In this document: in pieces, positions 1 to 23,927 of the stretch
Position numbering within the stretch: position 1 is the stretch's first letter
How the letters are laid out: each line of letters begins with the position of its first letter
From: a virus
DNA length: 33,950 bases
IMG/VR virus record: IMGVR_UViG_3300021962_000355
Coordinates: 1-33,950 of that record
Strand: one strand, 5' to 3'
The notes under the pieces: generated by a model
The model's database searches: none
Told to the model about the DNA's origin: nothing
Seen by the model: the letters and a program-made list of their open reading frames with translations, nothing else
Position numbers and translations under genes: made by a program

Positions 1-2
1 GC

Positions 3-71
3 ACCCTCGGCGACCACCGAGCACTGGCGAACATTGAGAAGCAATTCCGCCGCTCGCTCGCCAGCGCCTGA
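3..71 (+). CDS. C-terminal end of an unidentified GC-rich ORF (partial, cut by window start)
   Basis: An open frame enters from the left edge and ends at TGA 69-71; the 22 visible residues end in 'FRRSLASA'. The stretch is rich in GC-ending codons, quite unlike the AT-rich genes to its right, which suggests a different origin or an acquired gene. The fragment is too short to assign. The other two forward frames are also partly open here, so even the frame is only the best guess. The hairpin at 87-106 directly after the stop supports a gene ending here. Confidence 0.35.
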   Translation, partial: TLGDHRALANIEKQFRRSLASA

Positions 72-86
72 CCTGCCATCCTACCA

Positions 87-106
87 TGCCCCCGCCTCAG
101 GGGGCA
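87..106 (+). terminator. GC-rich hairpin after the partial ORF
   Basis: A perfect 7-bp stem (TGCCCCC at 87-93, GGGGGCA at 100-106) closes a 6-nt loop, 15 nt after the stop at 69-71. No U-tract follows (the next bases are GTCGGACA), so it is not a canonical intrinsic terminator; it could be a 3'-end stabilising hairpin or processing site. Confidence 0.4.
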
Positions 107-121
107 GTCGGACAGTAACGG

Positions 122-139
122 TATAACGTTATCGTTATA
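122..139. repeat. Overlapping short palindromes near the composition boundary
   Basis: ATAACGTTAT (123-132) is a perfect 10-bp palindrome. It overlaps a second inverted repeat, TATAACG (122-128) with CGTTATA (133-139) around a 4-nt loop. The region lies just left of the GC drop at about 160. It could be an operator or a junction remnant; nothing here proves either. Confidence 0.35.
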
Positions 140-160
140 GCGGCGCGGCCGAGCGAAAAG

Positions 161-340
161 TCATAGATACTATTAACCTACAAAACTTTGAAAACGCTCG
201 ATAGATTACACGTTCATAAAAAAAATTTTTCCCAAATCAAAATGACTCAAAAACCTCTAAGTACTCGGACGACCAAAAGAGAAGAGTTTTCGTATATCTT
301 CATAGTACTCAAAGAACTCGGAAAAATGCTTCTAGAAAGC
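161..340. other. AT-rich stretch without a convincing gene
   Basis: Between the GC-rich left end and the promoter at 341 I see no well-supported gene. One frame is open from a TTG at 188 to a TGA at 395-397, overlapping the next gene's ATG, but it has no ribosome binding site and no recognisable protein features. The stretch holds an A/T run at about 217-230 and two related 8-mers, GTACTCGG (261-268) and GAACTCGG (314-321); a third variant, GTTCTCGG, lies at 409-416 inside the next gene. It is probably a leader or regulatory region. Confidence 0.4.
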
Positions 341-369
341 TTGACAAAGCGTAGAGGGACTGCTAAGAT
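341..369 (+). promoter_or_regulatory. Sigma70-type promoter for the secreted-protein gene
   Basis: A perfect -35 box TTGACA (341-346) is followed after exactly 17 nt by a -10 box TAAGAT (364-369). Predicted transcription start is about 375-377, some 18 nt before the ATG at 394. This is a host-polymerase (early-type) signal, unlike the TATAAATA late signals of the structural genes. Confidence 0.65.
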
Positions 370-382
370 TGAGATATCTCAA
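369..382. promoter_or_regulatory. 14-bp perfect palindrome over the predicted transcription start (possible operator)
   Basis: TTGAGATATCTCAA at 369-382 is perfectly self-complementary over 14 bp. It begins at the last base of the -10 box and covers the predicted start site, a position where a bound dimer would block transcription. The same 7-base half-sites, in the opposite arrangement, form the hairpin at 869-888. The operator role is inferred from position and symmetry only. Confidence 0.45.
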
Positions 383-393
383 AAGACAACATC

Positions 394-801
394 ATGAAAA
401 CTCTCAGTGTTCTCGGAATGGCGTTGGCAACCCTCTCATTTCCTTTGAGTGCCTTTGCAACTGCCGCTCATTCACAAGCAATTTCTACCGAATGGTCAGA
501 TAAACCAATGGGTGCGACATATTTTCTGAAAAATGGTACAAGAATTCATATTACTTCAGGACCAGGCATTAATGCCAAAATGAAAGAAGTTGAAGCATGG
601 ATCAAAGCTCAGGAAGGTTCGCAGGTTGCTCAGTATGCCCCTCCTGCTCAAGTGCAGTATCAACCCCCCAGTTTCTTTCAAGGCTCGTCAGGAGCGCCTG
701 TGGTAGTCCCTCCGACTGTGATCAACACACAACCCAACAAGTGCCGTCAAAAGCGTATTAATCTTCTGCTGGTGTTTGATGTAGAATCTTCCGATTGTTG
801 A
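394..801 (+). CDS. Small secreted hypothetical protein with signal peptide (135 aa)
   Basis: The protein starts with a textbook Sec signal peptide: Lys near the N-terminus, a hydrophobic core (about residues 4-20) and an Ala-X-Ala-type cleavage site near 'SAFA' (about residue 22). The mature part has a short region with 'YFLKNGTRIHIT' (about 44-55), then a Pro/Gln-rich linker (about 80-115) and a C-terminal tail with two Cys. I recognise no family. It should be exported to the periplasm or envelope of the host, which is unusual beside baseplate genes and suggests an accessory (moron-like) gene. It has its own sigma70-type promoter but no clear Shine-Dalgarno. Its base composition looks richer in GC than the genes to the right. 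Its stop overlaps the start of the next small ORF (TGATG). Confidence 0.75.
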   Translation: MKTLSVLGMALATLSFPLSAFATAAHSQAISTEWSDKPMGATYFLKNGTRIHITSGPGINAKMKEVEAWIKAQEGSQVAQYAPPAQVQYQPPSFFQGSSGAPVVVPPTVINTQPNKCRQKRINLLLVFDVESSDC

Positions 802-968
802 TGGAACAAGTAACCCATATACTTGTAGATCATAATAACTACAGCATTACAATATGTGGCAACAGGGGATCTCAACGAACATTGAGATTCCATTTTGTTG
901 TTTTTTATGATGCATTAGAATATTGTGCTTCTCGTATGAGAGCAGAACATATTTTGTACATAAGTTGA
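801..968 (+). CDS. Possible 55-aa protein, start overlapping the previous stop
   Basis: An ATG at 801-803 shares its A with the TGA (799-801) of the secreted-protein gene, and the frame stays open for 55 codons to TGA 966-968. The product begins 'MEQVTHILVDHNNYSITI' and contains 'RTLRFHFVVFYDALEYC', which reads like a real small globular protein with alternating hydrophobic residues. There is no independent ribosome binding site; the TGATG overlap suggests translational coupling. It fills what would otherwise be an unexplained gap of about 190 bp. Doubt remains because the inverted repeat at 869-888 falls inside it and I recognise no family. Confidence 0.5.
   Translation: MEQVTHILVDHNNYSITICGNRGSQRTLRFHFVVFYDALEYCASRMRAEHILYIS
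869..888 (+). repeat. Inverted repeat ATCTCAA-6-TTGAGAT
   Basis: A 7-bp perfect stem (869-875 with 882-888), extendable with one bulge to about 9 bp, is followed by a T-rich run (about 893-906). It resembles an intrinsic terminator, but it sits inside the 801-968 frame and its arms are the same 7-mers that make up the palindrome at 369-382. It may be a terminator, a protein binding site, or chance. Confidence 0.4.
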
Positions 969-970
969 TA

Positions 971-976
971 TATAAT
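971..976 (+). promoter_or_regulatory. Possible -10 box TATAAT before the AbrB-like gene
   Basis: A consensus TATAAT lies 17 nt before the ATG at 994. No good -35 box is present at the proper distance (the region about 947-954 reads ACATATTT), so it would need an activator or be a weak start. Confidence 0.3.
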
Positions 977-993
977 GAAGTTGTATAAACATT

Positions 994-1191
994 ATGACCC
1001 CACACATTTACGAAACAACCGTAGAATATAACGAAGATTTTGATGAATATTACATGACATTACCTGATGAACTGACTGATTTGGTTGGTTGGGAAGAAGG
1101 TGATGTAGTGGAATGGAAAATTAATAAAGATGGTTCAGTACTTTTAGAGAAAGTAGACGAATTTTTTGACGAAAGCGAAGAAAATGATTGA
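994..1191 (+). CDS. AbrB/MazE (SpoVT)-like small protein (65 aa)
   Basis: The 65-aa acidic protein has the layout of the swapped-hairpin AbrB/MazE fold: 'YYMTLPDEL' (about residues 19-27), 'LVGWEEGDVVEW' (about 30-41) and 'INKDGSVLLEK' (about 43-53), matching the family pattern of strand, Pro, short helix, 'G...GD.V', and a final 'dG.v.l.k' strand. Members are transition-state regulators or antitoxins that bind palindromic DNA as dimers. The acidic tail (EFFDESEEND) is a departure from typical DNA-binding members. No toxin partner is obvious beside it, so a regulator is as likely as an antitoxin. Its last 8 nt overlap the next gene. Confidence 0.7.
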   Translation: MTPHIYETTVEYNEDFDEYYMTLPDELTDLVGWEEGDVVEWKINKDGSVLLEKVDEFFDESEEND

Positions 1192-2005: not shown

Positions 2006-2149
2006 ATGGCAAAATCACCAAGTTTTAACAAGTCAAGTTATGTTCCTGGCAAACCTAAATGCACTCGTCAAGGTCGCAGTAAAAATACAAACCTTGCTGC
2101 ATCCGCACGTAATGGACGCAAAAAGCGTTATCGTGGGCAGGGAAGGTAA
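2006..2149 (+). CDS. Small highly basic protein (47 aa)
   Basis: The frame from ATG 2006 to TAA 2147-2149 encodes 47 residues starting 'MAKSPSFNKSSYVPGK' and ending 'GRKKRYRGQGR'. It has 7 Lys and 7 Arg and no Asp or Glu. GAGGT lies 5 nt before the ATG. I recall similar short basic hypothetical proteins in cyanophage genomes, but no known function. The charge suggests binding to nucleic acid (host DNA, ribosome, RNA polymerase) or to an acidic host protein. It is bracketed by its own promoter (1955-1983) and terminator (2162-2187), so it can be made independently of the late genes, probably early in infection. Confidence 0.85.
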   Translation: MAKSPSFNKSSYVPGKPKCTRQGRSKNTNLAASARNGRKKRYRGQGR

Positions 2150-2161
2150 AAAATAGCACTC

Positions 2162-2475: not shown

Positions 2476-2871
2476 ATGCCTGTCAGTAGGTCGTTTAAAG
2501 ATCTTAGCATCACTTTTGATAAGCATCCGATCACCAACGACCTCATGGTGGTCAAGGATTTTGTTGCAATTAAAAAATCTGTGCAAAATTTATTGACCAC
2601 CTATCCAGGAGAACGTTTTTTTAATCCAAATATTGGTAGTAAGATAACAAAATTGTTGTTTGAACCCATTGATTACATTACTGCAACTACTGTTCGTGAA
2701 GAAATACAGTATACGATTGAAGCTTTTGAACCAAGAGTGTTGTTAAATTCAGTCGATGTAGTTCCAAACTTTGCAGAAGATGGATATGATATCACAATTG
2801 ATTATTCTGTAGTTGGATTGGAAGAAAAATCAGACACAATCACCCTCTTTTTAGAGAGAACTAGAGGATAA
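2476..2871 (+). CDS. 25: Baseplate wedge protein, gp25 family (131 aa)
   Basis: gp25 is a small wedge component that ties gp6 dimers to the sheath and is conserved across contractile injection systems (also called the GPW/gp25 or IraD/gp25-like family). The protein shows the family layout: 'DLMVVKDFVAIKKSVQNLL' (about residues 22-40), then the hallmark 'PGERFFNPNIGSKITKLLF' (about 44-62), then a helix with 'TVREEIQYTIEAFEPRV' (about 71-87) and closing beta strands. Length is as in T4 (132 aa). The stop overlaps the gp6 start by one base (TAATG), matching the physical partnership of the two proteins. Confidence 0.93.
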   Translation: MPVSRSFKDLSITFDKHPITNDLMVVKDFVAIKKSVQNLLTTYPGERFFNPNIGSKITKLLFEPIDYITATTVREEIQYTIEAFEPRVLLNSVDVVPNFAEDGYDITIDYSVVGLEEKSDTITLFLERTRG

Positions 2872-4676
2872 TGGCATACAATCAATTAACAAGTTTAGAC
2901 TATTTTGATATAAGAAATGCTCTTAGAGACTATCTAAGAGCAAATTCTGAGTTTAGTGATTACGATTTTGAGGGTTCTACTCTCGGTATGCTACTGGACG
3001 TGTTGGCATACAACACATATTACACATCTTTTAATGCTAATATGCTTGTCAACGAGTCATTTCTTGACTCAGCGACTCTCCGAGACAACGTAGTATCTCT
3101 TGCCAAGCAACTTGGGTATACTCCACGCTCTGCTGTAGCATCTGCAACTGCAGTAAATTTAAATGTAACACTAATTGGCAACACATTGCCACAATCAGTA
3201 TTTTTAAAGAGAGGGAATGCATTCCTTACTTTAGTGGACGATGTATTATATCAGTATGTTTTGCTTGATGACGTACAAGCAAATGTTTTACCAGATAACA
3301 CAGTAAATTTTGAAAATATCAAAATATACGAAGGAACGTATATTTCCAACAGATACACCGTTCCTGCTTATACAGGGTCATACAGCGTTGTCTTACAGAA
3401 CGCTAATATCGATACATCATCTATTCGTGTAAATGTCTTTGAGAGTTCAAGTTCCTCTTCCTTTGAAAAATTTGTACAATCTGATAATATTTTAAATGTA
3501 GGTGCAACATCACCCACCTACTTCGTAACAGAAGTTGAAGATGAGAACTATAAAATTACTTTTGGCGATGGAATTTTTGGGAAAAAGTTATTAACTGGTC
3601 AAGTTATTGAAATCAGTTATTTAACAACAAATGCTGCTGCCACAAATGGTGCTTCGGTATTTACATACAATGGTGTAATCACTGATATTGCTGGTACATC
3701 ATCATTTGCTACCACAGTAAATAGTGTAACTTCATTAACAAAAGCATTTGGCGGTGAATCAATCGAAACTATTGAAAGTATTAAAAGAAATGCTCCTGCA
3801 TCATTTGGAGCTCAGAATCGTGCAGTAACATCTTTAGATTACGAAGCAATTATTCGTCGCATCTACCCAGCAACAGCAGATGTTATTTCTTATGGAGGAG
3901 AAGAAGAAAATCCACCTGAATATGGAAAAGTAAAAATTTCAATCAAACCAAGAAATCTTAGTTTTCTTTCTTCTTACACTAAATCTGTTATTTTACAAGA
4001 ACTTAGAAAATATTCGGTTGGAGCAATTACTCCAGAGATTGTAGATCCATCGATTATCTTTGTTGAGTTAATTTCTAGAGTATTTTATGATCAGTCGCAA
4101 ACTAATTTAACTTCTGATCAAGTTAAACAAAAAGTAATTTCTAACTTAGCAAATTATATCAATTTATCAGATACAGAAAAATTTGGAGGTAAGTTTAGAT
4201 ATAGTAAATCAATCAGTACAATTGATGCATCCGATAGATCTATTCGTTCTAATCTAACTGATATTAGAATGAGAAAAGATTTCTATCCATCGTTAAATAA
4301 TAGTGCATATTATGAGTTTTGTTTTAACAATCCATTTGATGACGATATTGATGTTCAAACATTAGTTTCTACTGGATTTGTTGTGCAGCAATATCCTAAT
4401 TATGTTGTCTATATCGAAGATAGAGATTCAAAAGTTGTTCTCTATCGTTTAGATCCTCAAACTGGAGATAAAATTATTTTGAATAGTGAACAGGGTGAAA
4501 TTGATTATGCAAAAGGTGATGTAAGATTATACAATTTAAATATAATAAAAGGATCTTTCTCCGACAATAAAATAGAGATTAGATTGAAACCACTCTATAA
4601 TGATATTATTGCTAAGCGTCAAGTTTATCTTGATGTAGATATTGAGAAAAGTTCATTTACTTTAATTCAAGAATAG
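2871..4676 (+). CDS. 6: Baseplate wedge protein gp6 (Baseplate_J-like, 601 aa)
   Basis: gp6 forms the inner ring of the baseplate and drives its change of shape on host contact. The N-terminus ('DYFDIRNALRDYLRAN', 'GSTLGMLLDVLAYNTYYT', 'FLDSATLRDNVVSLAKQLGY') is typical of gp6/Baseplate_J proteins; the middle holds 'YKITFGDGIFGKKL' (about residues 226-239) and 'APASFGAQNRAVTSLDYEAI' (about 310-329), both characteristic. Length 601 aa compares with 660 in T4. It is coupled to gp25 upstream and 6 nt from the giant gene downstream. Confidence 0.93.
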   Translation: MAYNQLTSLDYFDIRNALRDYLRANSEFSDYDFEGSTLGMLLDVLAYNTYYTSFNANMLVNESFLDSATLRDNVVSLAKQLGYTPRSAVASATAVNLNVTLIGNTLPQSVFLKRGNAFLTLVDDVLYQYVLLDDVQANVLPDNTVNFENIKIYEGTYISNRYTVPAYTGSYSVVLQNANIDTSSIRVNVFESSSSSSFEKFVQSDNILNVGATSPTYFVTEVEDENYKITFGDGIFGKKLLTGQVIEISYLTTNAAATNGASVFTYNGVITDIAGTSSFATTVNSVTSLTKAFGGESIETIESIKRNAPASFGAQNRAVTSLDYEAIIRRIYPATADVISYGGEEENPPEYGKVKISIKPRNLSFLSSYTKSVILQELRKYSVGAITPEIVDPSIIFVELISRVFYDQSQTNLTSDQVKQKVISNLANYINLSDTEKFGGKFRYSKSISTIDASDRSIRSNLTDIRMRKDFYPSLNNSAYYEFCFNNPFDDDIDVQTLVSTGFVVQQYPNYVVYIEDRDSKVVLYRLDPQTGDKIILNSEQGEIDYAKGDVRLYNLNIIKGSFSDNKIEIRLKPLYNDIIAKRQVYLDVDIEKSSFTLIQE

Positions 4677-4682
4677 AAATAA

Positions 4683-7600
4683 ATGGCAACTAAAGTAAAA
4701 AGTTTATCCGCTCTTATTGATGGTCAGTTACCAGATTTTATCTCGTCTGAGTATCCTAAGTTTTCTGCGTTCATGCAGAAATACTATGAGCAACTTGAAT
4801 TGCCAGGTCAACCAATTGATTTAATATCAAACTTAACTAAGTATCGTGATGTTGATACTTATACCAATACTTTATTAAATCAACAAACCGTTTTAACTCA
4901 AAATATTACAGGAAGTTCAACAACTATTAATGTTGCAGATACTTCTTCTTTTCCAGAAGTAAATGGATATATCTTAATTGATGATGAGGTAATTTTTTAC
5001 AAAACAAAAACTGCTACATCGTTTTTAAATTGTTATCGTAACATAAGTTCTACTACTAAACTTGGTGATTTATATAATCCACTTGGATTTAAAAATATTC
5101 CAACTACTGAGTCTGGGGTTGGAGTTTCGCACTTAACTGGTTATAGTGTACTTAATATTAGTCATCTGTTTTTATATTCTTTAATCAAAAATTTTGAATC
5201 TGAATATCTATCATCTTTCCCAGAAACAGCATTAAAAACTTCAGCCGACAAGAGTTTGCTGATTAAGAATATCAAGAAATTTTATGCATCGAAAGGAACA
5301 GAATCTTCGATCAAATTTCTATTCAATTCATTGGTTCCAAGTGACGGTCCCAATGATCCTACAGTTTATTATCCAAAAGATTCTACCTATAAGTCGTCAA
5401 ACGGCGAGTGGGTTCACAACTATTCATTAAAAGCAAAAATCTTAGGCAATATTACAGATATTCGTTATCTGATTGGTGGAAGAATAGTACAACAAGAAGA
5501 TCAGAATGATTCTAGCGTAGGATATGCTTCGGCAGTTATCGATAATATCATTTCTATTGGTGAAGGGTATTATGAAATAATATTAGCGGAACAGAGCGTA
5601 GTAGGACAATTTTCTGTAATTTCAGAGACTTATTTAACTACAAATCTTTTATCAAATCAGACAACCAATAAAAGAATTAATGTTTATTCTACGACTGGAT
5701 GGAGAACTGGCACGGGAAGTTTAATTCTTGGAACAGAAGAAATAACTTATAAATCAAAAACAGTAAATCAATTTATTATTGACAGTAGAGGATCTACTCC
5801 TGGAACATATTCTGTCAATACTCCAGTTTATAAAAAATCCAATGTCAATCTAAATTATATTGACGAAAATAATCAAACTCAAAATAGATCTATTCTTGTA
5901 TTAGGAATACTTTACAATCTAAACCAAAATATTCCTACTCCATATTCAATATCGGGAGATACTATTCAAATTGCCGATTCTGGGTTTGATGCCAAGAATC
6001 CAATTATATTCAATAAAATTGCAAATTCTATTCGTTGGAGTTTGAATGAAACTAATGTATTCTCTTCGGTTAGTTCGTTATCTGATGTATTAGTTAATGT
6101 ATCTGCAATTTATGAAGATGACCAGTATTATTATATTGCATCATCTGGATATCCTAATCACACAATAGGAAAAAATGATTGGAATGTTACTCTACAAGAT
6201 CAGAAGAATTTAAAATTAATTAGAAAATACCCCACTAGAACTACCGAGATATACGAAACAACCACTAAAGATGTTGGTGTTCTTATAAATGGTGTTCCGA
6301 TTAGAGGAGTTAAAGATGATGAAACTATTACGTTTGGAGAAATAACAAAATTTATTGTAACTAATAAAGGAAGTGGATACTTAAATCCTCCAAAAGTTCT
6401 AGTTATTGATACTGCTGGCGTAAGTGGTGTTGCTGAAGGACGTGCTGTATTATCTGGCGATGTTGTAGATAGAATCGATGTTATAGAGGGCGGTGGAGGA
6501 TTTTTCCCTCCTGTTCCAACAATTGTAATTACTTCTGGAAGAAATGCTACTGCAGAACCAGTAATTACAAACGGTAGAGTAACTAGTATAAAGGTAACAA
6601 ATGGTGGAGAGTATTATACTACTCCTCCTAAGGTAATTATTAGTGATGCATCAGGGAAAGGAAGATTTGCTAATTTTACCGCTGTTATTTCTGATGATGG
6701 AGAACTTACTGGATTCATTAAAAATGATGAGGGAAAATTTTATGATCCAACATCAACTACAGTAACCATTCAATCAGTTGGTTCTGGAGCACAAGCAACT
6801 TCTTTTGTGCGAACATGGACCAGAAATAGATTTGAAAAATTAAAATTAAATTTAGATGATAGTTATGGTCATTATTTTTTAAATAATAATCCTTCATTAG
6901 GATATGGATATAACTATGTCGCAAATCCAAAAAGATTGAGAGTAGCAATTGGAGACAATTTAGATAATATAGGTAATGTTCCTAATACTTTAGTACATTC
7001 TCCTATTATTGGATTTGCTTATGATGGAAATCCCATCTATGGTCCATATGGATACCAAAATCCTGGAAATTCTACATCATCTGTTGTTAGAATGACTTCT
7101 AGTTATAAACTAAAAGTCTCTAGAACTGGAGGACCATCTACAACTGTATATTCTTTGGGATCTTTTGTAGAAGATTATGAATATGTGCATAGATCAGGAA
7201 GTTTAGATGAAAACAACGGAAGATTTTGCGTTACCCCAGATTATCCAGATGGGACATATGCATATTTCGTAACTATTCAAGCAGATAATACTCCAGTGTA
7301 TCCATATTTCTTGGGTAAAAATTATTATTCAATTCCAGTAGATTCAAATTATAATAAAACAATATCTCAAGATGATATACCACTTAATATTTCTAGATTA
7401 AGAACTTCTAGAACAAAAAACAATGGAGATGGTGTAGTTGCTTTTATTGAAGAAACTAAAACTGGATCTATTTCAAATATTGATGTAGTTTCTTCTCATA
7501 ATAGTTTTTCAGTTGATGGTGTAGTAGATGTAGATTACTCTGGAACAGGTGGATCTGATATTTTAGCGAAAATTTCTAGTGTAAAAGGAAAAGACGTAAA

Positions 7601-10600
7601 TTCTTTACTATCTTCATTTGGCATATACAAATTTTTTGATTATTTTAATGCAACTATCAATTCGCAATTAATTTCTACAGGGGTTACGAGTTATCCAGTC
7701 AATGTTAATTCATTAGGATTTTCTACAACTATTGATGCTAGAGATATTGTTGATTACACTCTAACTACTACAGATGTATTAATGCGTGATAATTCAATTG
7801 TTATTCTTTTACCTCCATCTTTAGATAAATGCGTTAAATTAACCACAGAATCTCCATGTTATTTGTATGATGGTGATATTATCACACAATCGGGAACATT
7901 AGCAACGGGTAGAGTTGTCGGTGACGTGGTTAATTCAAAAGATATTGTATTAAAAGAAGTTACCAAAAAATTTGAAAACATTAATTCAACTGCAACAAAT
8001 ACCGTATCATCTTCTATAGAAGTAATTAGTGTTGTAGTTGATAAAGTCTCTAGTTATAGTTTAGGTTCACAGATTTCACAAACAAATGGAAAACAAGCAA
8101 TAATTCTTTCTTCATCAAATAACAGAATTAATTTAGCATCTAATACATTTGAACTAAATGAACCTATTATATTTTCTTCTGCATTTTCTGGTCTCTTAAC
8201 TGACAAAATTTATTACGTAATTAATCCAACTCCAACAACTCTTCAAGTTTCTACCACTCCTAACGGCAATCCTGTATTGATATCTGATAACACTGCTCCT
8301 GGAGCAGTGATATTAAATCAAAAAGCTTTGGGTGTAGTTTTAGAGACAACAGAAGAAAAAAATACCTGTAAAATACGTGTATTACGCGGAAATTTTGAAG
8401 TTTCTTCTAATTATTTCTTAAAAACTAGTGATTTGAAAGATACGATTGGTAGTAAAATTGTACAGAAGAATCCTTTAAGTTATGATATAAAAGTATTAAC
8501 AAATACTGATAAAATTGCTATTTTAAAAACTAATCAAAATCATGGCGTATCAGTCGGTGATTTAATTAATGTTAATATAAGACCAGATGATACAAATACT
8601 ACTACCACAATCTATGTACGAAGACGAATTTATCAAAAAGTTAAGTTAAACACACCTACTTATAATAAAATATTAAGTGATACTGGTGTTGGTAGAGTTT
8701 TAGTACTCAATAGTGGTTCTGATTATGCATATGATGTAAATGGTAATGCAACATACACAAATGTTGAATTAATTTTTGCAGATCAAACTAAATGTCGAAA
8801 TGAGACTGGACAAATAACCAGTGATTTGACAAACGCTGTTATAGGAAATCCTGGAAATACAAATAATGCAAAAGCTACGATTAGAGTAACTAATGGATTA
8901 GTTACATCTATTCAAATTACATCTAAGGGAAGATTCTATACAAAAGGTGATCTTCTTACAGTATCACCTAATTCAATTTATAGAAATCCAACGTCATCTT
9001 CTACTAGAACATTAATAGTAGAAGTTGATCATGCTGGGTTTGCAAAATTAAATACCCAACTATTTTTAAATGAGGTAAATTCTGTATCTGTCAATGATTT
9101 TCTACAATTAGGAACTGAAATTCTTAAAGTAACATCTGTTAATAATGTAAATAACTCATTAAATGTACTAAGAGCCCAAGAAAATACGGTTGCTTCCGAT
9201 CATATTAACAATGAAATAGTAGAAGCATATTTACCAAAATATCTGTTCAATTTTAACTATCAACTAGGAAATACTCCTTCAGATCCATATATATCTTCTT
9301 ATGATCCAACAACTAAAGAATTAGAAGTAACATTTGATTCTGGAAGTACGTTAACTACTATTAATCCGTTATCTTCCTCAAGTTTCTTCTATGATCAAAA
9401 TACTCCTAGAAAAATAGTGGGAGTTGTTGATATTTTGCAATCCCCAACATATAAATTTGAATTTTCTTATGATAATATAAATTGGACTAAGAATCCAATC
9501 ACTCCTATACAAAAATATTACAAATATAAGTTTGACACTTCACATCCATCATTATCTGGGAGTTTTCTCGAATTTTCTCCCAGCGGAAATTATAACATAA
9601 TTACAACAGAAGTAGAAAAAAGTCCAATTATACCAGGATTTGCAAATTCTTTTACAACATTAAAAATTGGATTTGGTGCTAACATTACATCCAATACTTT
9701 TACAAATATAAAAGATACAGAATTTACAAATTATTATTATTTTGATAAAAACAATATTATTGATTCCGAAAAATCTTATTTAAAGATTATTGAAGATCCT
9801 TTACAAGGAGAGCATAAGATTGTATACACTACTCCCCGTGAAATGGTGTATGAAGTATCTAATTATCCTCAACACTCTGGATCTGGAGTTATTTCATATA
9901 CAACTACATCTTCTGGTGCAATTGGAGAAATAAATTCAATTAAAATAGTAAATTCTGGTAAAAATATGTCTAAACTACCAGTAGTAACTGGAGTTCAGCC
10001 GTCTTCTTCTACTGAATGTAAAGTTGATGTTGCTTGGAATGAAAATACTGGCAGTATTATTGGTATTTCCATAATTAATTCTGGATCGAATTATTCTAAC
10101 CCAAAAGCTATTTTAGTAAAAGGAGATGGGAGAAATTATGCATTTGACGTTAGAAAAAATGCTGATAATACTATTTCAGCAGTGGTGTTGTTGAACGGAG
10201 GAACAGGATTTACATCTAAACCAGAAATTAGAATTATAGAAACAGATGTTAAAGCATATTTTTCCAGTAAAGAAATAGGTGTTCCATCCAAAGTATCCAT
10301 AATAGATAACGGAAAAGGATTTAATAGTGATGTAACAACAAAAAGAAAGATTACTTCTAATAGAATTTTAATTCTTAAAGATTTCCCAGTAAACGCATTT
10401 TTTGAAAATGAAATTATAGAGCAATATGATGGATCCGCTAAAATTGCTACAGGATATGTTTCTAAGGAAGGATGGAAAGAAGGTAGTAACGTTCTTCGTC
10501 TGAATCGAGTAGAAGGAGAATTTAAAACTAATTTATCAATTGTTGGCAAAACTCAAAACAATACTGCTAATGTAGTTTCTTCTTTTGTTGGAGAATTTAA

Positions 10601-13600
10601 TTATGATGTTAAATCATACTTCGATAATATTGGTTACTATGCTTCTGATAGATCTAAGATTAGTTCTTCTTCTCAAAAATTAGCAGATTCTTATTTCTAT
10701 CAAGATTATTCATATGTTGTTAGATCAAGAACTCCTATTGATATTTGGAGAAGATTAATAAAATCTTCTACTCACCCTGCTGGATTCCAATTATTTGGCG
10801 AAGTTGCTATAGATTCGGTAGGTGTTGCTAAAATTAATAGCATACAACCAAAAATTGATCATGTTTCATCTATTCAACTCTGGGATCCTCAGAAAAATAA
10901 AATCACTGTTGAAAAATCTTATAGAACAGTTACCAATATAACGGTATCATCTAGTTTTGTTGATAAACAGAGAGGAAAAGGTTCATTATTTGTAAATACG
11001 TTTGATGATTCAGAAACTCAAAGTTATGAGTTTTATCTGACTCCAGAATTTAATGGTTATTTTGACTCAAACGGTAATAGAGCTGGAACAAAAGTATTCA
11101 CTATGAAAGTTATTGGAAGTAATAACAATCTGTTTATTCCTACTCAAGAAAATATTGTTATCACATTGGATGGTATAATTCAACAACCAGGAAAAGCATT
11201 TACAATTTCTGGTACACAAATCACATTTAATGAAGCTCCTTTAGGATATAGAAATTCTATTGGTCAATCAATATCTTCATCAACATATGTTGAAGGTGTT
11301 GATACACCGAAACAAAAATTTGTAGGAAGAGCATTACGATATAAAAATACCATAGTAAACTCTACTTACTTTAGAACTATATCAGATATTTCTTCTCAAT
11401 TTGATGGTGTAAAAAACACTTTTAATTTATTTAATTCTAGTAATAATTCAGATATTATATTAGAATCGGGTGATAATTTAATCGTAACTATAGATGGTGT
11501 TTTACAAAATCCTGGTATAACACCAACTTTTCCAGTTGATAGATCATATTATATCAAGAGATCTGTTACTCCAAATCAAATTGTTTTTACCGAACCTCCA
11601 AAATCTGGACAAACATTTGGTGCTTATTCTATCTCAAACTACGAATTAGCAGAAATTGATGATTCTTTTGTGAATGGATCTTTTTATGGTCCATTTATTA
11701 TGAGAAGGAGATCTAATAAAAAACCACTTGAAGTTTTTAATGATAATAATTTATTAGTTTTTGTAGATAGAATTTTACAAAAGAAAAATAGAAATTACAT
11801 TGTTCAAGGATCATCTATTACTTTTACTAATCCAATTATTTCTGGACAAAAAGTAGTTATATTGTATTTTTATGGTAGATCAGCTTCTACTAATATAACT
11901 GCATTCAATTATGAAGAAGATACTTATTTTAACTTAGTAAAAATTAATTTAAACTATGTACCACCATTAGCACAGTATGCGGATAGAATTGCATATCAAG
12001 GAAATAACATTCAAAATAATACTGCCATAGGAAAAGCAAAGGGAATATCATTAACTCCTACGGGATCTGTTTTACTTGTACAAGCACAGAATGCACAATT
12101 TGTAACTAATCAAAATATTACTATTGTAAATGGTTTATCTTCTGGTTTAGGAGATTTAGTTATTCCTTCGTCTGCAATTGTCGATATAAGTCCATTTGAA
12201 ACAGATGATGAAACTATTGGTATTTTGCAAAAAGATAATTCTGGTTGGTTAATTGGATCTTCTTTGAATAAAAAAATACCAAATTTTGTCGATATTGGAG
12301 ACCAAATTAGAATTGATGGCGAAACTAAGTACAGAACTATTCTTTCTCTTCCAGATAAAGTTTTAAAGACTCAATATAATACTAATTCTTCTATTGCTAA
12401 TAATTTCTTTGGAAAACTCACTGTTACTCCAAATGATGAAACGTATAAAGGAGAAGGATTAACAGTATTTGCAAAAATTGAAAATGGACAAATTACTTCT
12501 CTAGAATGGAATGATAGAAAATACAATCAATATGGATTTGGGAAATTACAACCTGGAGCATATGGGTATGAAAATGCTCCGAAGTTAGTTTTTGTACCAC
12601 AACCTTTACGAGATGAAGGTGGAAGCATTGTTGCTCCAGCTCAAGGTGGAGGTGCAGAAGGATTCGTTATTGTGAGTGGAGGAGAAGTGATTGATGTTGT
12701 TTTAACAAATCCTGGTAGTAATTATTTAACTTCTCCAAAAGTTTATGTTGCAAAAGGATATGATATTATCAAAAATCCTGAAAAGAGAGTTAATAGTAAA
12801 TTTGAAATAACGTTTTTCCCAAAAATTTCTACAACTATATTAATATCTTCTCTAGTTAATCTTGAATATGGATTTGCAGTTCACGAAGAACCATCTATTA
12901 TTAGTCCAACTGAATTACTGGCATCTTCTATTGTAATTACAACAGGAATTAATACTTTAAGTACTACTCCAAATATTGTAGATATTAAATATGATTCTGT
13001 CACGATCAAACAAGAATTGAATTTAACTACCACATTAAATTCAGTGGTATCTTTAACAAAAGATATTATTGTTAATGTTCATACATTATGGGATAATGTA
13101 AAAGAATCTACCATTAAAGAAGTACAGCAAGAAATAACTAAAACAGTTCCTGTAGGATTTACAGATTTTTATGCGGAAGAAGTAAATACTCCAATTTCAT
13201 ATGCTCCATTAACACTAGGTTCTACATTGAAAAAGTTTGAAAATGGAGCTTTTAATGATATGGGATTTGTAAATATGGGAGGAATATCTTTAGATCAATT
13301 TGAAAGAACATATGGAAATATAACAATTCAAGATTTTGAATTGAGACCAAATAGTGCTAAAGCAATAAATGAAGATACTTTAATGAATCTTGGATATGGA
13401 TCTACTAATGAATATGGCGCATATTTACAATTACCACTAACAACAACAAGCTCAATCATTTATATTTCAAATACCGACAGATTCCCATCATCAGGAAAAC
13501 TTTTGGTAGGTGATGAAATTGTAACTTATACTTCTAAACTATCCGATCGTTTTATTGGTGTTTCCAGAGGTCAGTATAATACTACAGCAAAAACACACGA

Positions 13601-13631
13601 TGCTGGAGATTATTTAAGAACTCTGAATTAG
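4683..13631 (+). CDS. Giant baseplate wedge-type protein in the gp7 position, with YHYH-like domain (2982 aa)
   Basis: It lies exactly between gp6 and gp8, where T4 has gp7 (1032 aa), but is nearly three times as long. Residues 1-65 ('LPDFISSEYPKFSAFMQKYYE', then 'LTKYRDVDTY') and about 185-235 ('LLIKNIKKFYASKGTESSIK', 'YYPKD') are the conserved core I recall from phage wedge proteins. Later parts are a chain of beta modules: 'DDEVIFY'-type modules at about residues 77-118, 325-380, 1455-1515 and 2920-2980; 'GSGY..PPKV'-type repeats at about 555-700, 1750-1880 and 2590-2700; a YHYH-like domain at about 772-885 ('GFAYDGNPIYGPYG'); and three 'DG.LQ.P'-type modules at about 2150-2400. It probably joins the wedge core to peripheral fibre-like decoration. 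gp7 identity rests on position and the N-terminal motifs, so no symbol is given. The frame is uninterrupted. It has only a weak ribosome binding site and is likely read from the gp25 or upstream promoter. Confidence 0.92.
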   Translation: MATKVKSLSALIDGQLPDFISSEYPKFSAFMQKYYEQLELPGQPIDLISNLTKYRDVDTYTNTLLNQQTVLTQNITGSSTTINVADTSSFPEVNGYILIDDEVIFYKTKTATSFLNCYRNISSTTKLGDLYNPLGFKNIPTTESGVGVSHLTGYSVLNISHLFLYSLIKNFESEYLSSFPETALKTSADKSLLIKNIKKFYASKGTESSIKFLFNSLVPSDGPNDPTVYYPKDSTYKSSNGEWVHNYSLKAKILGNITDIRYLIGGRIVQQEDQNDSSVGYASAVIDNIISIGEGYYEIILAEQSVVGQFSVISETYLTTNLLSNQTTNKRINVYSTTGWRTGTGSLILGTEEITYKSKTVNQFIIDSRGSTPGTYSVNTPVYKKSNVNLNYIDENNQTQNRSILVLGILYNLNQNIPTPYSISGDTIQIADSGFDAKNPIIFNKIANSIRWSLNETNVFSSVSSLSDVLVNVSAIYEDDQYYYIASSGYPNHTIGKNDWNVTLQDQKNLKLIRKYPTRTTEIYETTTKDVGVLINGVPIRGVKDDETITFGEITKFIVTNKGSGYLNPPKVLVIDTAGVSGVAEGRAVLSGDVVDRIDVIEGGGGFFPPVPTIVITSGRNATAEPVITNGRVTSIKVTNGGEYYTTPPKVIISDASGKGRFANFTAVISDDGELTGFIKNDEGKFYDPTSTTVTIQSVGSGAQATSFVRTWTRNRFEKLKLNLDDSYGHYFLNNNPSLGYGYNYVANPKRLRVAIGDNLDNIGNVPNTLVHSPIIGFAYDGNPIYGPYGYQNPGNSTSSVVRMTSSYKLKVSRTGGPSTTVYSLGSFVEDYEYVHRSGSLDENNGRFCVTPDYPDGTYAYFVTIQADNTPVYPYFLGKNYYSIPVDSNYNKTISQDDIPLNISRLRTSRTKNNGDGVVAFIEETKTGSISNIDVVSSHNSFSVDGVVDVDYSGTGGSDILAKISSVKGKDVNSLLSSFGIYKFFDYFNATINSQLISTGVTSYPVNVNSLGFSTTIDARDIVDYTLTTTDVLMRDNSIVILLPPSLDKCVKLTTESPCYLYDGDIITQSGTLATGRVVGDVVNSKDIVLKEVTKKFENINSTATNTVSSSIEVISVVVDKVSSYSLGSQISQTNGKQAIILSSSNNRINLASNTFELNEPIIFSSAFSGLLTDKIYYVINPTPTTLQVSTTPNGNPVLISDNTAPGAVILNQKALGVVLETTEEKNTCKIRVLRGNFEVSSNYFLKTSDLKDTIGSKIVQKNPLSYDIKVLTNTDKIAILKTNQNHGVSVGDLINVNIRPDDTNTTTTIYVRRRIYQKVKLNTPTYNKILSDTGVGRVLVLNSGSDYAYDVNGNATYTNVELIFADQTKCRNETGQITSDLTNAVIGNPGNTNNAKATIRVTNGLVTSIQITSKGRFYTKGDLLTVSPNSIYRNPTSSSTRTLIVEVDHAGFAKLNTQLFLNEVNSVSVNDFLQLGTEILKVTSVNNVNNSLNVLRAQENTVASDHINNEIVEAYLPKYLFNFNYQLGNTPSDPYISSYDPTTKELEVTFDSGSTLTTINPLSSSSFFYDQNTPRKIVGVVDILQSPTYKFEFSYDNINWTKNPITPIQKYYKYKFDTSHPSLSGSFLEFSPSGNYNIITTEVEKSPIIPGFANSFTTLKIGFGANITSNTFTNIKDTEFTNYYYFDKNNIIDSEKSYLKIIEDPLQGEHKIVYTTPREMVYEVSNYPQHSGSGVISYTTTSSGAIGEINSIKIVNSGKNMSKLPVVTGVQPSSSTECKVDVAWNENTGSIIGISIINSGSNYSNPKAILVKGDGRNYAFDVRKNADNTISAVVLLNGGTGFTSKPEIRIIETDVKAYFSSKEIGVPSKVSIIDNGKGFNSDVTTKRKITSNRILILKDFPVNAFFENEIIEQYDGSAKIATGYVSKEGWKEGSNVLRLNRVEGEFKTNLSIVGKTQNNTANVVSSFVGEFNYDVKSYFDNIGYYASDRSKISSSSQKLADSYFYQDYSYVVRSRTPIDIWRRLIKSSTHPAGFQLFGEVAIDSVGVAKINSIQPKIDHVSSIQLWDPQKNKITVEKSYRTVTNITVSSSFVDKQRGKGSLFVNTFDDSETQSYEFYLTPEFNGYFDSNGNRAGTKVFTMKVIGSNNNLFIPTQENIVITLDGIIQQPGKAFTISGTQITFNEAPLGYRNSIGQSISSSTYVEGVDTPKQKFVGRALRYKNTIVNSTYFRTISDISSQFDGVKNTFNLFNSSNNSDIILESGDNLIVTIDGVLQNPGITPTFPVDRSYYIKRSVTPNQIVFTEPPKSGQTFGAYSISNYELAEIDDSFVNGSFYGPFIMRRRSNKKPLEVFNDNNLLVFVDRILQKKNRNYIVQGSSITFTNPIISGQKVVILYFYGRSASTNITAFNYEEDTYFNLVKINLNYVPPLAQYADRIAYQGNNIQNNTAIGKAKGISLTPTGSVLLVQAQNAQFVTNQNITIVNGLSSGLGDLVIPSSAIVDISPFETDDETIGILQKDNSGWLIGSSLNKKIPNFVDIGDQIRIDGETKYRTILSLPDKVLKTQYNTNSSIANNFFGKLTVTPNDETYKGEGLTVFAKIENGQITSLEWNDRKYNQYGFGKLQPGAYGYENAPKLVFVPQPLRDEGGSIVAPAQGGGAEGFVIVSGGEVIDVVLTNPGSNYLTSPKVYVAKGYDIIKNPEKRVNSKFEITFFPKISTTILISSLVNLEYGFAVHEEPSIISPTELLASSIVITTGINTLSTTPNIVDIKYDSVTIKQELNLTTTLNSVVSLTKDIIVNVHTLWDNVKESTIKEVQQEITKTVPVGFTDFYAEEVNTPISYAPLTLGSTLKKFENGAFNDMGFVNMGGISLDQFERTYGNITIQDFELRPNSAKAINEDTLMNLGYGSTNEYGAYLQLPLTTTSSIIYISNTDRFPSSGKLLVGDEIVTYTSKLSDRFIGVSRGQYNTTAKTHDAGDYLRTLN
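11140..11880 (+). repeat. Three consecutive 'DG.LQ.P' fibre modules within the giant protein
   Basis: Three successive segments share the plan [I/L]V.[L/V]DG[I/V][I/L]Q, then an aromatic or Thr/Ile strand, then 'ITF..P..G': 'ITLDGIIQQPGKAF' with 'ITFNEAP' (about 11160-11240), 'VTIDGVLQNPG' with 'IVFTEPPKSG' (about 11480-11610), and 'VFVDRILQKKNRNY' with 'ITFTNPIISG' (about 11755-11850). This is a beta-repeat found in phage fibres. The third copy has lost the Gly after Asp. Confidence 0.7.
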
Positions 13632-13634
13632 AGG

Positions 13635-13648
13635 TATAAATATAAATA
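13635..13648 (+). promoter_or_regulatory. Two overlapping TATAAATA late promoters before gp8
   Basis: TATAAATA occurs at 13635-13642 and again at 13641-13648, sharing two bases, in the 53-nt gap before gp8. The ribosome binding site AGAGAGAAG follows at about 13670-13678. The doubled core gives two possible late starts 6 nt apart. Confidence 0.75.
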
Positions 13649-13684
13649 AGAATTACGAACCAATTAGCAAGAGAGAAGTTTTCA

Positions 13685-15511
13685 ATGGCCGCAATCATTT
13701 CTGAAAAGTTTAGAATTTTTAATGCCAAGCAGTTTTATGAATCTCTAACAGAACCTACTGGTGGTTTAGATACTTCTTCCGAAAGAACTAGAATGTATTT
13801 TTTCGTAGGAAGACCTCAGAGATGGTTTGCATATTTAGAAGTTTATAATAAGTCAGCAACTGATTTTGTTGCTGGGCAAAAAGTATTTGTTGGAGCAAAC
13901 TTTGCTTCTGCCACTTTCCGAGCAGATGTAGTTGCATCATATTCAAATAGTTTACTTCTATCTGCTATTGGTCCAACTGCTGCTGCAGTACCTGCTGCTG
14001 GTTCTACTTTGACTGGTTATAATCCAGTTACTAGCACAAATACTGCTGCAACAGCGTTAAGTGGTGTTTATCGTTTTGCTACAGATGACATTCCACCTGT
14101 ACCATATGATAACCAGTCAGAAAAGTACATTTCATATGCTGACATCCTTGCAGCAAAAAGAATTACTGGTGAATTTGCTCGTCCAGTAGTTAGAAGATAT
14201 AACTGGGATATTTCCACAAATAGTCGTTTTGATATGTGGAGACCAGATTATTCAGAACAAAAAACTTCGGCTGTAACGTTATCTGGTGGTTCAACTGGAT
14301 CTCAAAATATTTCAACTGCTAAATTTTATGTTGTAAATAATCGCTATGAGGTATTTAAGTGTCTTTATAATGGGGAAAGACCTGCTTCTTTACTACCTGG
14401 CGGTGTATTACCAACCGTAGCATACGAACCATCTACAGCACCTTCTAGTGGCACCTATGCTAACGGCATCTACAAAGAACCAGCCGACTCAAACGGACAA
14501 TCAAATTATATCTGGAAATATATGTACACTATTTCCACAAATGATGTGTTGAGATTCCTTTCTACAGATTTTATTCCCATCGTTGCTGATAACAATGTTC
14601 AATCAGCAGCAGTTGATGGCGCTATTAGTGCTGCTGTACTAAAATCAATTGGTTCAAATTTACCAACTAGTCAATCTGCACTTTATGCTCCTGTTTTAGG
14701 AGATGGATCTGGCGGCGTTGTTAAATTTGGAACAACTGGCACTGGAGAAATTAATTACGCTTACTTACATGCTGCTGGTTCTGGTTATACATATGCAAAT
14801 GTTATTTTAAAGAATGGTAATGTATACTCCGATGCTGCTTTGACAACTCCAGTAACGGTAGGCGCTTCAGCAACTGGTGCTATTGAATGTGTTCTTTCTC
14901 CTCAAGGTGGTCATGGAAAGGATCCAATCATTGAATTAAATGCTAAGCGTATTATGACAAATATTCGCTTAACATATGCTGAAGGTGGTGGAGATTTCCC
15001 CGTAGAGAACGATTTTAGAAGAATTGGTATTCTTCAAGATCCTCTGCTATATGGTACTTCTAATTATGCTACGGTTGATACTCTGTCTAATCTAAGAGCA
15101 GTTAAATTAACTGGCGTTACTGGTCTTTTCCAACAGGATGAGGAAATTACACAAAGTTTAGGCAACGGAAATGTTGCAAAAGGAACTGTGGTTGCTTGGA
15201 CTCCAGATGCAGGTTCAACAACTACAGGAGTATTGAAATATTTCCAATCACCAGATTATCATCAAGATAATGGTATTGTAAGACCATTTGCATCAAACGC
15301 TTCAAATCCTGTCACTGGATTAACGTCTAACATTACAGGAACAGTTGATACTTCATTCAATGCTTCATCTTTAGGAGCTACTTTTACAAATGGTCTTGCT
15401 TTACCAGAAATTCAACCAAATTCTGGTGAAATTGTCTATATTGAAAATAGAAGATTAATCACAAGAGCACCCGACCAAGTAGAAGATATTAAACTCGTTA
15501 TTGAGTTCTGA
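13685..15511 (+). CDS. 8: Baseplate wedge protein gp8, enlarged (608 aa)
   Basis: gp8 is an outer wedge subunit of the T4 baseplate. Identity rests on both ends: the N-terminus ('SEKFRIFNAKQFYESL', then 'RMYFFVGRPQRW') and the C-terminus ('GEIVYIENRRLITRAPDQVE', then 'IKLVIEF'), which align closely with T4 gp8's 'GEMIYMENRPPI' and 'DQTEEINILF' ends. In between are 'YNWDISTNSRFDMWRPDY' (about residues 174-191), 'YEVFKCLYNG' and 'YIWKYMYTIS', all expected gp8 landmarks. At 608 aa it is almost twice T4 gp8 (334 aa); the extra length lies at about residues 60-150 and 300-560 and includes a 'GSGYTYANV' repeat shared with the neighbouring giants. It has its own late promoter pair. Confidence 0.9.
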   Translation: MAAIISEKFRIFNAKQFYESLTEPTGGLDTSSERTRMYFFVGRPQRWFAYLEVYNKSATDFVAGQKVFVGANFASATFRADVVASYSNSLLLSAIGPTAAAVPAAGSTLTGYNPVTSTNTAATALSGVYRFATDDIPPVPYDNQSEKYISYADILAAKRITGEFARPVVRRYNWDISTNSRFDMWRPDYSEQKTSAVTLSGGSTGSQNISTAKFYVVNNRYEVFKCLYNGERPASLLPGGVLPTVAYEPSTAPSSGTYANGIYKEPADSNGQSNYIWKYMYTISTNDVLRFLSTDFIPIVADNNVQSAAVDGAISAAVLKSIGSNLPTSQSALYAPVLGDGSGGVVKFGTTGTGEINYAYLHAAGSGYTYANVILKNGNVYSDAALTTPVTVGASATGAIECVLSPQGGHGKDPIIELNAKRIMTNIRLTYAEGGGDFPVENDFRRIGILQDPLLYGTSNYATVDTLSNLRAVKLTGVTGLFQQDEEITQSLGNGNVAKGTVVAWTPDAGSTTTGVLKYFQSPDYHQDNGIVRPFASNASNPVTGLTSNITGTVDTSFNASSLGATFTNGLALPEIQPNSGEIVYIENRRLITRAPDQVEDIKLVIEF

Positions 15512-15549: not shown

Positions 15550-18500
15550 ATGCCTCAAAAGACAAATCTTAACGTCCCGCCATATAATGACGACTTTGAT
15601 AAAGATAAGGGATTTTACAAGGTATTATTCCGTCCTGGTTATAGTATTCAAACCAGAGAATTAACTACGTTACAATCTGTTTTACAAAATCAAATTGAAA
15701 ATTTTGGTAGAAGCAGATTTAAGCAAGGACAGCAAGTGGTTCCTGGTGAAGTAGCGTTTAATAATAAACTAGATTACGTTAAATTAGCATCTGTTTCTGA
15801 AGTTGCGGTAAACGTAAATGGAAATATTGTATTTGAAAAATATGATATTTCTAAATTAGTTGGAAAAACCTTGCAAGGTTTGTCTTCGGGAGTACAAGCA
15901 TCCGTTATATGGTATTCTAAATCTTCCGAAGTTGAATCTGATGTATTGTTTATAAAATACACTAATAGTGGTAATGCAAATAATGAGTTTACTTTTAGAC
16001 AAGGAGAAACATTAGAAGTATTAGATCTTGCTGATACTCCAACATTAGTTGTCGGAACTGATGGTAGTGTTCTTCCAACTACAATTACAGTAAAAGATTA
16101 CGATACTGGAATTAGTAAAATTATTGATAGTCCAGCAATGGGTTATGCTTCTGCTGTTAAAGTAGAATCTGGAGTTTACTTTGTTAATGGTTATTTTGTC
16201 AACAATTCTGAGCAGTTGATAGTAGTTGACAAATATTACAATAAACCATCTGCTAAAGTTGGTTTTGCTATTACTGAAAATATTATTACTCCAGAAAAAG
16301 ACAGTTCTTTGTATGATAATGCAAGAGGATCTTCTAATTTTGCTGCTCCTGGTTCACATCGTTTAAATATTGATTTAAATCTAGTTGTTCTAGATTTTGA
16401 TTCATTAACTGATAGTCAATATATTCAACTGGTAACTATCAAGAATGGGGAGATACAACAACTTGTAAAATCTACCGATTATAATGTATTAGAAGAAACT
16501 CTGGCAAGAAGAACGTTTGATGAATCTGGAGATTATGTTGTAGATAATTTTTCTTTAGATTTGAGAGAATATTACCAAAAAGATAATAACAAAGGAGTCT
16601 ATCCATTAAACGAAGAAACTGGATTAGTAAATGGCAAAAAAATTTCTGATGCCTCTGAATTAATGTTAGCTGGAGTTGAATCTGGCAAAGCATATATCAA
16701 AGGTTATGAAATTATTAATAAAGAGAAAAAATATTTAGAAATTAATAAAGCCAGAGATACTTTAGTACAGCAGAACAACAGAACTAAATTTTCTTCACTG
16801 GCATATTTTAATATTACTAATGTATATGGAAGTATTCCACTTAATGCTGATGGTGCAGAATTAACTGCATATCCAACAATTTATTTAAATTCTGCATTTA
16901 ATGATGGATCTATTGGATTAAACAATACAGAAACTTCAACATATTCAAAACAAACTTTAAATCGCAGAGGTCAAAAATTTGGATTAGATGATGGTATCAT
17001 CACATTGTATTTACGTGATCCAGCGAATTATGCATCTAGATCTTTTCCAACTGATTCTGAATTTGGAACCACATTCACAAAACTTTGGTATGTTGTAAAT
17101 CTCGGATCTTCTGCTGCAGCAACCATTGCAAAAAGTGTAGATGTATTATCATATTCTGTCGTAAAAAGACCCGATATTCCATATGTAGGCACCACCGAAC
17201 CAAATTATCTAGAACTAACTGTAGTTGGCAACAAAGAAGATATTCAAATTTTCTTGAAAGAATATGATGATTTTGATACCATAAAAAGAAGAAAATTATT
17301 CTTAACTCAAGATGATGCTAGAGAATTTTATTTTCAGAGTCAAGGAGTAAATGCTTCCATATCTGCATACTCAGAAATTATAGATTATAACGATGTAGTT
17401 ACTCCTATTATTGGTGCAGCAAAACCAAAAGATTTTGGTTTACAAAAAGTTGGATCTGGATTCAATGTAGATACTGATATTATTTTATCTAAAGGAAGAT
17501 TAAATTCAGGACAAACAACATATAACTCTATATTCAAATTATCTTATTTCAATCCAACATTTTTTACAAAAATTGTTTTGGATCAAAGTATTGCTACAGA
17601 AACTTTTGCACCTGGAAAATATATTACTGGATTAACTAGCAAAGCTTATGGTATTGTAGAAGGTTCTGCTGGTACAAAATATACATCTGGTAGTATTTTA
17701 TATGTACGAGTATTATCTGGGCAATTTGTGTCTGGTGAAACAATTGCAGACGAATCGGGAAATACTCAAAGAATAGCGAGAGATGGAACAATTTCTCATT
17801 TTGTAGTAAATTATCGAGGAGAGGGATATCCCGCTACATCAAAATTAAAAATTAATGGTATTACTTATGATAATTCTGCTGTAGAAATTGGTATTACTGG
17901 CAATTTCATTTATAAGGTAATTATAAAAGATAAAAATTTAGTATCTCAAACATATTCTACTACTCCGACTATTTCTTTTGATACGGGAAACACTAATGTA
18001 ATTTCATCTGCTGTAATCTCTCCTGTTTTGTATAGAAATAGTGTGCAAACTTATGGAGCAGAAAATGTAAAATCGATGCATTCGTCATTTGGTGCAGGCG
18101 ATGTATATACATTCACATGTGATGTAGAGACTTTTGATTCTTCATTTTTAAATACTAAAGTATTAACTGATTTTACTTTTTCTGGATCTAGAGGATCTAA
18201 GTATATCGAATGTAATGGATTTTCAGGAAATCCAGCAACAGAACTAGTTCCTGGAGATTTACTACAATTTACTGATACTGCTAATAATGTTGTTCGTGTA
18301 ATTGTACAAAGAATTGATTTACCAGAAGGTTTAATAAAATCCAGAATTTATTTTGATAATGTTTTACAAAATAATGTTGCTAACACGAGTGTAATTAGAG
18401 TAAGACCAAATGTTGGTAATGCAGCAAAATCAACTTTACTTATTCCAACATCAGCAAAATATTTAAGTAAAATTGTACAAGATCCAGAAAATTCAGAAAT

Positions 18501-23711: not shown

Positions 23712-23927
23712 ATGGATTATTCAAAAATTATAGAGCATGACAATCTAGTTAGAGATAACTCGACTGGAGCGGTTATAAATACTGATAAAAGTACATTTGA
23801 AGATATAAAAAGGATTCGTAGTAGTAATTGTTCCGTCAAACAATTGCAGACAGATCTTGAAAGCTTAAAGCATGAATTGTCAGACATAAAAAATCTTCTA
23901 AGAGAATTAATAAGACATGGCGGTTAG
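23712..23927 (+). CDS. Small coiled-coil protein between the giant genes (71 aa)
   Basis: It starts two bases after the DUF4815 stop and overlaps the next gene by 11 nt (ends at TAG 23925-23927). The second half is a predicted amphipathic helix ('VKQLQTDLESLKHELSDIKN', about residues 42-61, with regular Leu/Ile spacing). The first half is polar. No family is recognised. Its position suggests a small structural or assembly partner of one of its large neighbours. A TATAAATA motif lies inside it. Confidence 0.8.
   Translation: MDYSKIIEHDNLVRDNSTGAVINTDKSTFEDIKRIRSSNCSVKQLQTDLESLKHELSDIKNLLRELIRHGG
23774..23781 (+). promoter_or_regulatory. Possible internal late promoter before the 2102-aa gene
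   Basis: TATAAATA lies within the 71-aa gene, 136 nt before ATG 23917. It matches the elements before gp25 and gp8, but it is coding sequence and further from the next start, so chance is a real alternative in AT-rich DNA. Confidence 0.35.

Follow-up and report, generated by a model that had tools for sequence, protein, structure and literature searches.

The abrupt fall in GC content near the left end of the window (i.e. the whole stretch of DNA that was analysed, 33,950 bp, which is an entire IMG/VR virus record) is genuine, and very probably it marks the right-hand edge of a block of hypervariable accessory genes in a T4-like cyanophage, located at a conserved cis-element. It is taken to be a hypervariable-region edge of a known kind because the boundary recurs in other phages, because its left and right sides differ, and because GC falls across loci that were selected by the core of the element. 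Direct observation establishes that the boundary exists, that it recurs, and that its left and right sides differ in conservation and GC. What was suspected to be an assembly error becomes a landmark, i.e. a DNA element that marks where the accessory genes of T4-like cyanophages end. Mosaicism of variable regions is of a known kind, and it is the family-wide element at the edge of such a region that is worth following, as it offers a precise spot for testing an origin, packaging or a transcription start.

The composition break and the element in the window

A direct count gives 101 G or C among window positions 1-160 (63.1%) and 44 among the 140 bases at 161-300 (31.4%), which exactly reproduces the sharp break, from about 63% to about 31% GC some 160 bases in, that had been claimed by the initial annotation. 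The first 160 bases are the GC-richest 160-bp window of the whole 33,950 bp; the maximum among 160-bp windows starting after base 200 is 0.544 (at 589), and the first block lies 6.0 s.d. above the 211 later non-overlapping blocks (mean 0.332, s.d. 0.050, max 0.494). As the window is the entire record, the break sits at the contig end. It coincides with an intergenic element at about 120-230 (palindrome, conserved core and A-tract), and the steepest change, as read from the sequence, is at ~155, where the GC-rich half of this element ends. The other features ascribed to the GC-rich part are likewise present: the tail of an ORF that uses GC-ending codons, with its stop codon at 69-71 (GC3 is 0.76 for the full-length gene in contig L016), a GC hairpin at 87-106, and a palindrome located exactly at 122-139 (TATAACG-TTAT-CGTTATA). 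The features of the window are:

3-71, + strand: 3' end of a HicA-like phage ORF (22 codons plus stop), the whole 61-aa ORF being present in L016 and L017
87-106, + strand: GC hairpin TGCCCCC-GCCTCA-GGGGGCA after the HicA-like stop codon, terminator-like, without a T run
120-155, no strand assigned: upstream half of the element, 18-bp palindrome (122-139) plus GC-rich stretch (S-PM2 alignment, pattern scans)
168-196, no strand assigned: downstream half of the element (core), the window's version of CTACCCTAACCTACARAGG (alignments, phage-record matches)
216-230, no strand assigned: A/T tract after the core (sequence; A6 or longer at a like place in 90 of 102 loci)
394-801, 994-1191, 1187-1528, 1661-1969 and 2252-2452, + strand: small ORFs of the AT-rich right unit (ORF list, PHROG search)
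2476-2871, + strand: gp25, baseplate wedge (PHROG phrog_261, E 3e-52)
2871-4676, + strand: gp6, baseplate wedge (PHROG phrog_219, E 2e-192)

The region around the hairpin (window 70-160) folds at -35.9 kcal/mol (z -2.8). A terminator scan did not call the hairpin at 87-106 a terminator, and S-PM2 has a T run at the corresponding place. Searches of the whole window gave no Rfam match at the gathering threshold and no tRNA, and a covariation test on 21 aligned sequences predicted 0 pairs for the core region; it is because of this lack of conserved RNA structure that the core is read as a DNA-level signal.

The junction in other contigs and the left block

Three explanations had been proposed for the break, i.e. 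a misassembly of unrelated DNA, a phage/host junction and an acquired host-like gene. The first, a chimera uniting unrelated DNA at the contig end, is suggested by the position of the break, just 121-160 bp off that end. However, two of the four contigs returned by a pattern scan with the palindrome (L006/L017 and L005/L016) share the window's junction, with 164 of the 165 bases of window 1-165 being identical in L016 as well as in L017. L017 is 99.93% identical to the window across 14,060 bp and is not counted as an independent sample, while L016, with 93.4% identity across 11,027 bp, represents a diverged strain; since this strain has diverged by ~7%, it is hardly possible that it would share one and the same chimera. 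A similar junction is found in the remaining palindrome-bearing contigs and in S-PM2, which is an isolate. A chimera is therefore extremely improbable, and in practice refuted.

A phage/host junction is not supported either, since the many small same-strand ORFs into which L016 extends, over more than 8 kb to the left, include two with relatives in phages, and the palindrome pattern was matched exactly nowhere in genome contigs from 84,980 species. Both candidates were discarded, as other contigs span the junction and the upstream genes are of phage type. A plasmid search with window 1-175 gave no match. The idea of an acquired host-like gene is partly supported: the left genes are indeed GC-rich and accessory, but the relatives found in a protein search of phage records are phage genes, behind which an older host origin may still lie. 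Neither is the break a normal local fluctuation among phage genes of uniform GC, an outcome that the initial annotation had allowed for: the upstream phage genes are truly GC-rich.

The last gene of the left block is the HicA-like ORF, with its final 22 codons at window 3-68 and its stop at 69-71; S-PM2p243 is among the genes that align with it. It is named HicA-like only, because no match exceeds the Pfam cut-off: a relative in L026 matches HicA_toxin with an E of 1.5e-4 and 22.2 bits (versus a curated cut-off of 27), and a Pfam search with the L016 version gave no hit. The block also encodes an ArdA-like anti-restriction protein (PHROG phrog_36653, E 6e-40; Pfam ArdA at E 0.007, which is under the cut-off), DUF7326 and, in L019, DUF7249. 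The protein search of phage records returned 9 records for the HicA-like gene, exclusively from cyanophages, and 17 for the ArdA-like gene (15 cyanophages and 2 marine viruses); because relatives of both occur in phage records, the left side is regarded as phage accessory DNA. The S-T4 record opens near its own HicA-like ORF, and no element was seen in the two end pieces of that record.

Spread and architecture of the element

Versions of the element are found ahead of gp25 across T4-like cyanophages. In S-PM2, the stretch at 25,089-25,122 shares 91% identity with window 122-155 (34 bp) and lies between S-PM2p243 and p075, upstream of gp25 (S-PM2p079). Among IMG/VR stretches, 21 contain the pattern TAACGTTATCGTTATNGCGGC (S-PM2 itself being one of them), and the contigs from the 84,980 species yielded no exact match to it. 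The downstream half is more widespread, with 62 phage records matching the L029 version, 44 the L036 version and at least 284 the Syn19 version, the latter being a lower bound from short matches; for scale, the window's gp25 matches 730 records, 458 of which are named Synechococcus, Cyanophage or Prochlorococcus. In the annotated phages examined, the element separates an array of small hypothetical ORFs from the gp25-side ORFs, and in the P-TIM68 and S-SCSM2R records an annotated hypothetical ORF overlies it.

When each genome was scanned with its own sequence omitted from the model, the score of the 19-base core was 32 bits in Syn19, S-SM2 and P-SSM4 versus at most 13 for the next best site, and 27.2 versus 11.3 bits in DSL-LC02; the diverged core of S-PM2 and S-CREM1 was not distinguishable from background. 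With up to 3 mismatches allowed, it occurs once in 8 of the 10 complete genomes and 0 times in S-PM2 and S-CREM1, i.e. it is single-copy where recognisable.

The architecture was derived from 102 non-redundant loci among 112 usable ones, out of 120 selected by exact core, so that the conservation of the core itself stems from the selection of loci; that of the flanking boxes does not. The order is GC-rich block, TATAAAA-type box, core, ATATA-type box and A-tract. GC reaches 0.74 at -30 to -21 and is down to 0.15 at +50 to +59; the TATAAAA-type box is found in 90 of the 102 loci, the ATATA-type box in 68 (versus 15% in shuffled sequence) and the A-tract in 90. In 33 of the 102 loci (L113-L232), the 80 bp before the core contain runs of at least 6 C or G. 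No description of an element at this boundary was found in the open PMC literature (subscription journals being mostly outside its coverage), and 12-14-base words from the element retrieved nothing but unrelated papers from open PMC text. The element may be undescribed, although its absence from such a search is no proof of its being unpublished.

Variable left side, conserved right side

The two sides of the element differ strongly in conservation. Among the 65 of the 120 core-selected loci that have at least 1 kb on either side, coverage was higher on the right than on the left in 1084 of the 1134 locus pairs with any match, and the opposite was found in 49. In a profile anchored on the element (45 loci with 1.5 kb on either side, 844 pairs), coverage is ~0.05 immediately to its left versus ~0.5 at +500 to +1000. 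Conservation falls to ~0.2 at +80 to +300, just right of the element, so that the conserved stretch does not run on from it without interruption. Downstream, gp25 lies on the same strand in 62 of the first 80 core-selected loci, and the other 18 carry just 0.15-4.8 kb rightward.

Contig ends are also unevenly distributed. Among 38 contigs covered in their entirety (within L113-L232), 35 have their nearer end on the left, and 9 of these 38 end within 300 bp left of the element, versus 0 on the right. The simplest reading is that assemblies break inside the hypervariable block, which would also account for the window beginning 121 bp left of the palindrome; the boundary thus suggests a reason why metagenomic contigs tend to break there. 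Both ends of the S-E7 record MH920640.1 (L279, L280) fall within the element and share an exact 127-bp repeat, which is probably an assembler word-length overlap of a circular contig and was not used as evidence on ends.

The GC step in other phages

A positive GC step of 0.07-0.37 is present in 22 of 22 rows comprising the palindrome-selected contigs, the window and S-PM2, a set that includes near-duplicates and was chosen by a GC-rich pattern. A fairer test is provided by the 120 core-selected loci, 95 of which were measurable: GC drops across the core in 86 (mean +0.065), by more than 0.1 in 19, while the step is absent or reversed in 9. When the first 80 core-selected loci (of which 68 could be measured) were set against 945 control positions (mean 0.004, s.d. 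0.037), a step above 0.1 was found in 12 loci, versus 0.2% of the controls. It is positive in all 10 complete genomes, but under the genome's 80th percentile in 4 of them (Syn19 0.56, P-SSM4 0.71, S-CREM1 0.77 and Bellamy 0.78). The S-PM2 genome has its largest 600-bp GC step 271 bp to the left of the palindrome and, immediately left of that step, its GC-richest 1 kb. The step is thus general yet usually small, as it is in many marine phages, and extreme in the lineage that includes S-PM2 and the window. Among core-selected loci, comparing the palindrome half with left GC gives a rho of -0.19 (p 0.06), just one locus having a close palindrome.

In the palindrome-selected set with near-duplicate contigs dropped, the GC3 of left ORFs climbs toward the element (rho 0.67, n=170), which could point to a position-dependent gain of GC, i.e. 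a GC-biased process that begins at the element and raises the GC of whatever genes lie to its left. A slope of 0.035 +/- 0.008 per kb in fact persists after removal of family and contig effects. However, the trend is found chiefly between gene families (rho 0.82, 41 families) and is weak within them (rho 0.16, p 0.05), so that gene identity accounts for most of it, and the GC3 of the ArdA-like family holds steady at 0.50-0.57 between -1.2 and -6.4 kb in 8 of its 9 members (0.35 in L018). Besides, a GC-rich pattern had been used to choose the sample, and its ORFs are related and were called mechanically, some perhaps being spurious overlapping frames. A purely positional gradient was rejected, being mostly accounted for by gene family with a residual slope remaining, and a position-dependent gain of GC is considered improbable.

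Proposed exchange up to the element, and its possible functions

The preferred reading, that of a hypervariable-region edge, involves the following arrangement. The left side consists of small, same-strand and exchangeable phage genes (ArdA-like, HicA-like and unknowns), GC-rich in this lineage, and the right side of an AT-rich unit that runs toward gp25-gp6 and the baseplate, with the conserved cis-element, single-copy wherever it is recognisable, in between. Recombination between phages would swap the left block as far as the element and not through it, presumably because the element and the baseplate unit are under strong selection, and GC-rich genes arriving to its left would leave a GC step. 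In outline, this agrees with what the available text of two published studies describes, i.e. the spontaneous loss by S-PM2 of a 9.5-kb ORFanage segment at 5,799-15,339 (PMC4503421) and, in one lineage of Synechococcus phages, the co-localisation of variable genes with recombination events (PMC6722890).

The S-PM2 ORFanage and the hyperplastic regions of cyanomyoviruses likewise consist of small same-strand ORFs that are lineage-specific, arranged in arrays and subject to gene turnover. The array left of the boundary consists of small, mostly unknown ORFs with a content that differs between relatives, as in a hyperplastic region, and the S-PM2 copy of the element, near gp25 (p079), falls inside the range ORF 002-078 at which the ORFanage is placed in the available text of a review (PMC2984593). 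The same text gives g15-g18 as Millard et al.'s hypervariable region (PMC2984593), and the boundary in the window therefore differs from it by name. The parts of the ORFanage literature that could be consulted do not mention a conserved element on the gp25 side or a GC step.

What the element does is a matter of graded likelihood. Tentatively, and as a reading that falls only a little short of an even chance, it may act as the start signal (promoter or leader) of the right-hand unit, just past the end of the left transcription unit. Set against this are the degenerate TATA-type box in the window and the matches to a sigma-70 promoter model in window 1-1000, which were no more numerous than in shuffles.

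Somewhat unlikely is a replication origin, with the palindrome or core as binding site and the A-tract as site of unwinding, from which linked recombination would drive gene turnover on the left. The single occurrence of the core in 8 of 10 genomes is consistent with it, as are the AT boxes and A-tract without RNA structure, and in 7 of the 10 genomes GC skew reaches its maximum 3-18 kb to the left of the element. That maximum is never at the element, however, and lies elsewhere in 3 of the 10. By the usual bacterial rule, a GC-skew maximum marks the terminus rather than the origin, and it would then point to a terminus here; as evidence for an origin, GC skew is ambiguous. An origin has been predicted for Syn9, as the available text of the review has it (PMC2984593), but uvsY is far from the element in 6 of 6 genomes.

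This position of uvsY also bears on T4 oriF, or ori(uvsY), which lies beside uvsY and upstream of gene 25, with an AT-rich tract after a possible start signal. The element is similarly upstream of gene 25 and has an AT-rich tract after a possible start signal, but it is not beside uvsY, and as UvsY (PF11056) is far from it in all 6 genomes, a counterpart of oriF by synteny was rejected.

PeSL cassettes have several signal copies per genome, which is at odds with a core found once in 8 of 10 genomes and unrecognisable in the other 2. They resemble the element in being an intergenic stem-loop signal at a shuffling boundary, as described for T4-type phages in the available text of PMC4503421, and differ from it in copy number. 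In such cassettes the stem-loop stands next to an early promoter; the window has the hairpin at 87-106, with sigma-70 matches at the level of shuffles.

It is improbable that the element is instead a preferred start of packaging, where recombinogenic DNA ends would lead to mispackaging and gene turnover. Puxty et al. describe a region of 2-3 fold read density just downstream of the S-PM2 ORFanage, read as terminal redundancy, but in the available text the density step is given without coordinates (PMC4503421). The S-PM2 deletion (5,799-15,339) ends ~10 kb from the element (25,089), and the excess of nearer contig ends on the left (35 of 38) is accounted for equally well by hypervariability. 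The more encompassing idea that the element is the unique start site of the family, for replication or packaging, and that recombination from it drives both accessory turnover and the one-sided rise of GC on the left, is unlikely.

A few further features of the right-hand side can be added. The ORF just before gp25 (1661-1969) encodes a PAAR-motif protein (phrog_281, E 1e-17). Window 2038-2156 and 2196-2333 match cyanophages at the DNA level (75% to S-SCSM1 and 84% to S-CREM1); these stretches overlie or adjoin tiny ORFs, and their match exceeds that of most of the surrounding 3 kb. Very long ORFs are located near the baseplate wedge genes, at 4683-13631, 15550-23709 and 23917-30225 (2982, 2719 and 2102 aa).
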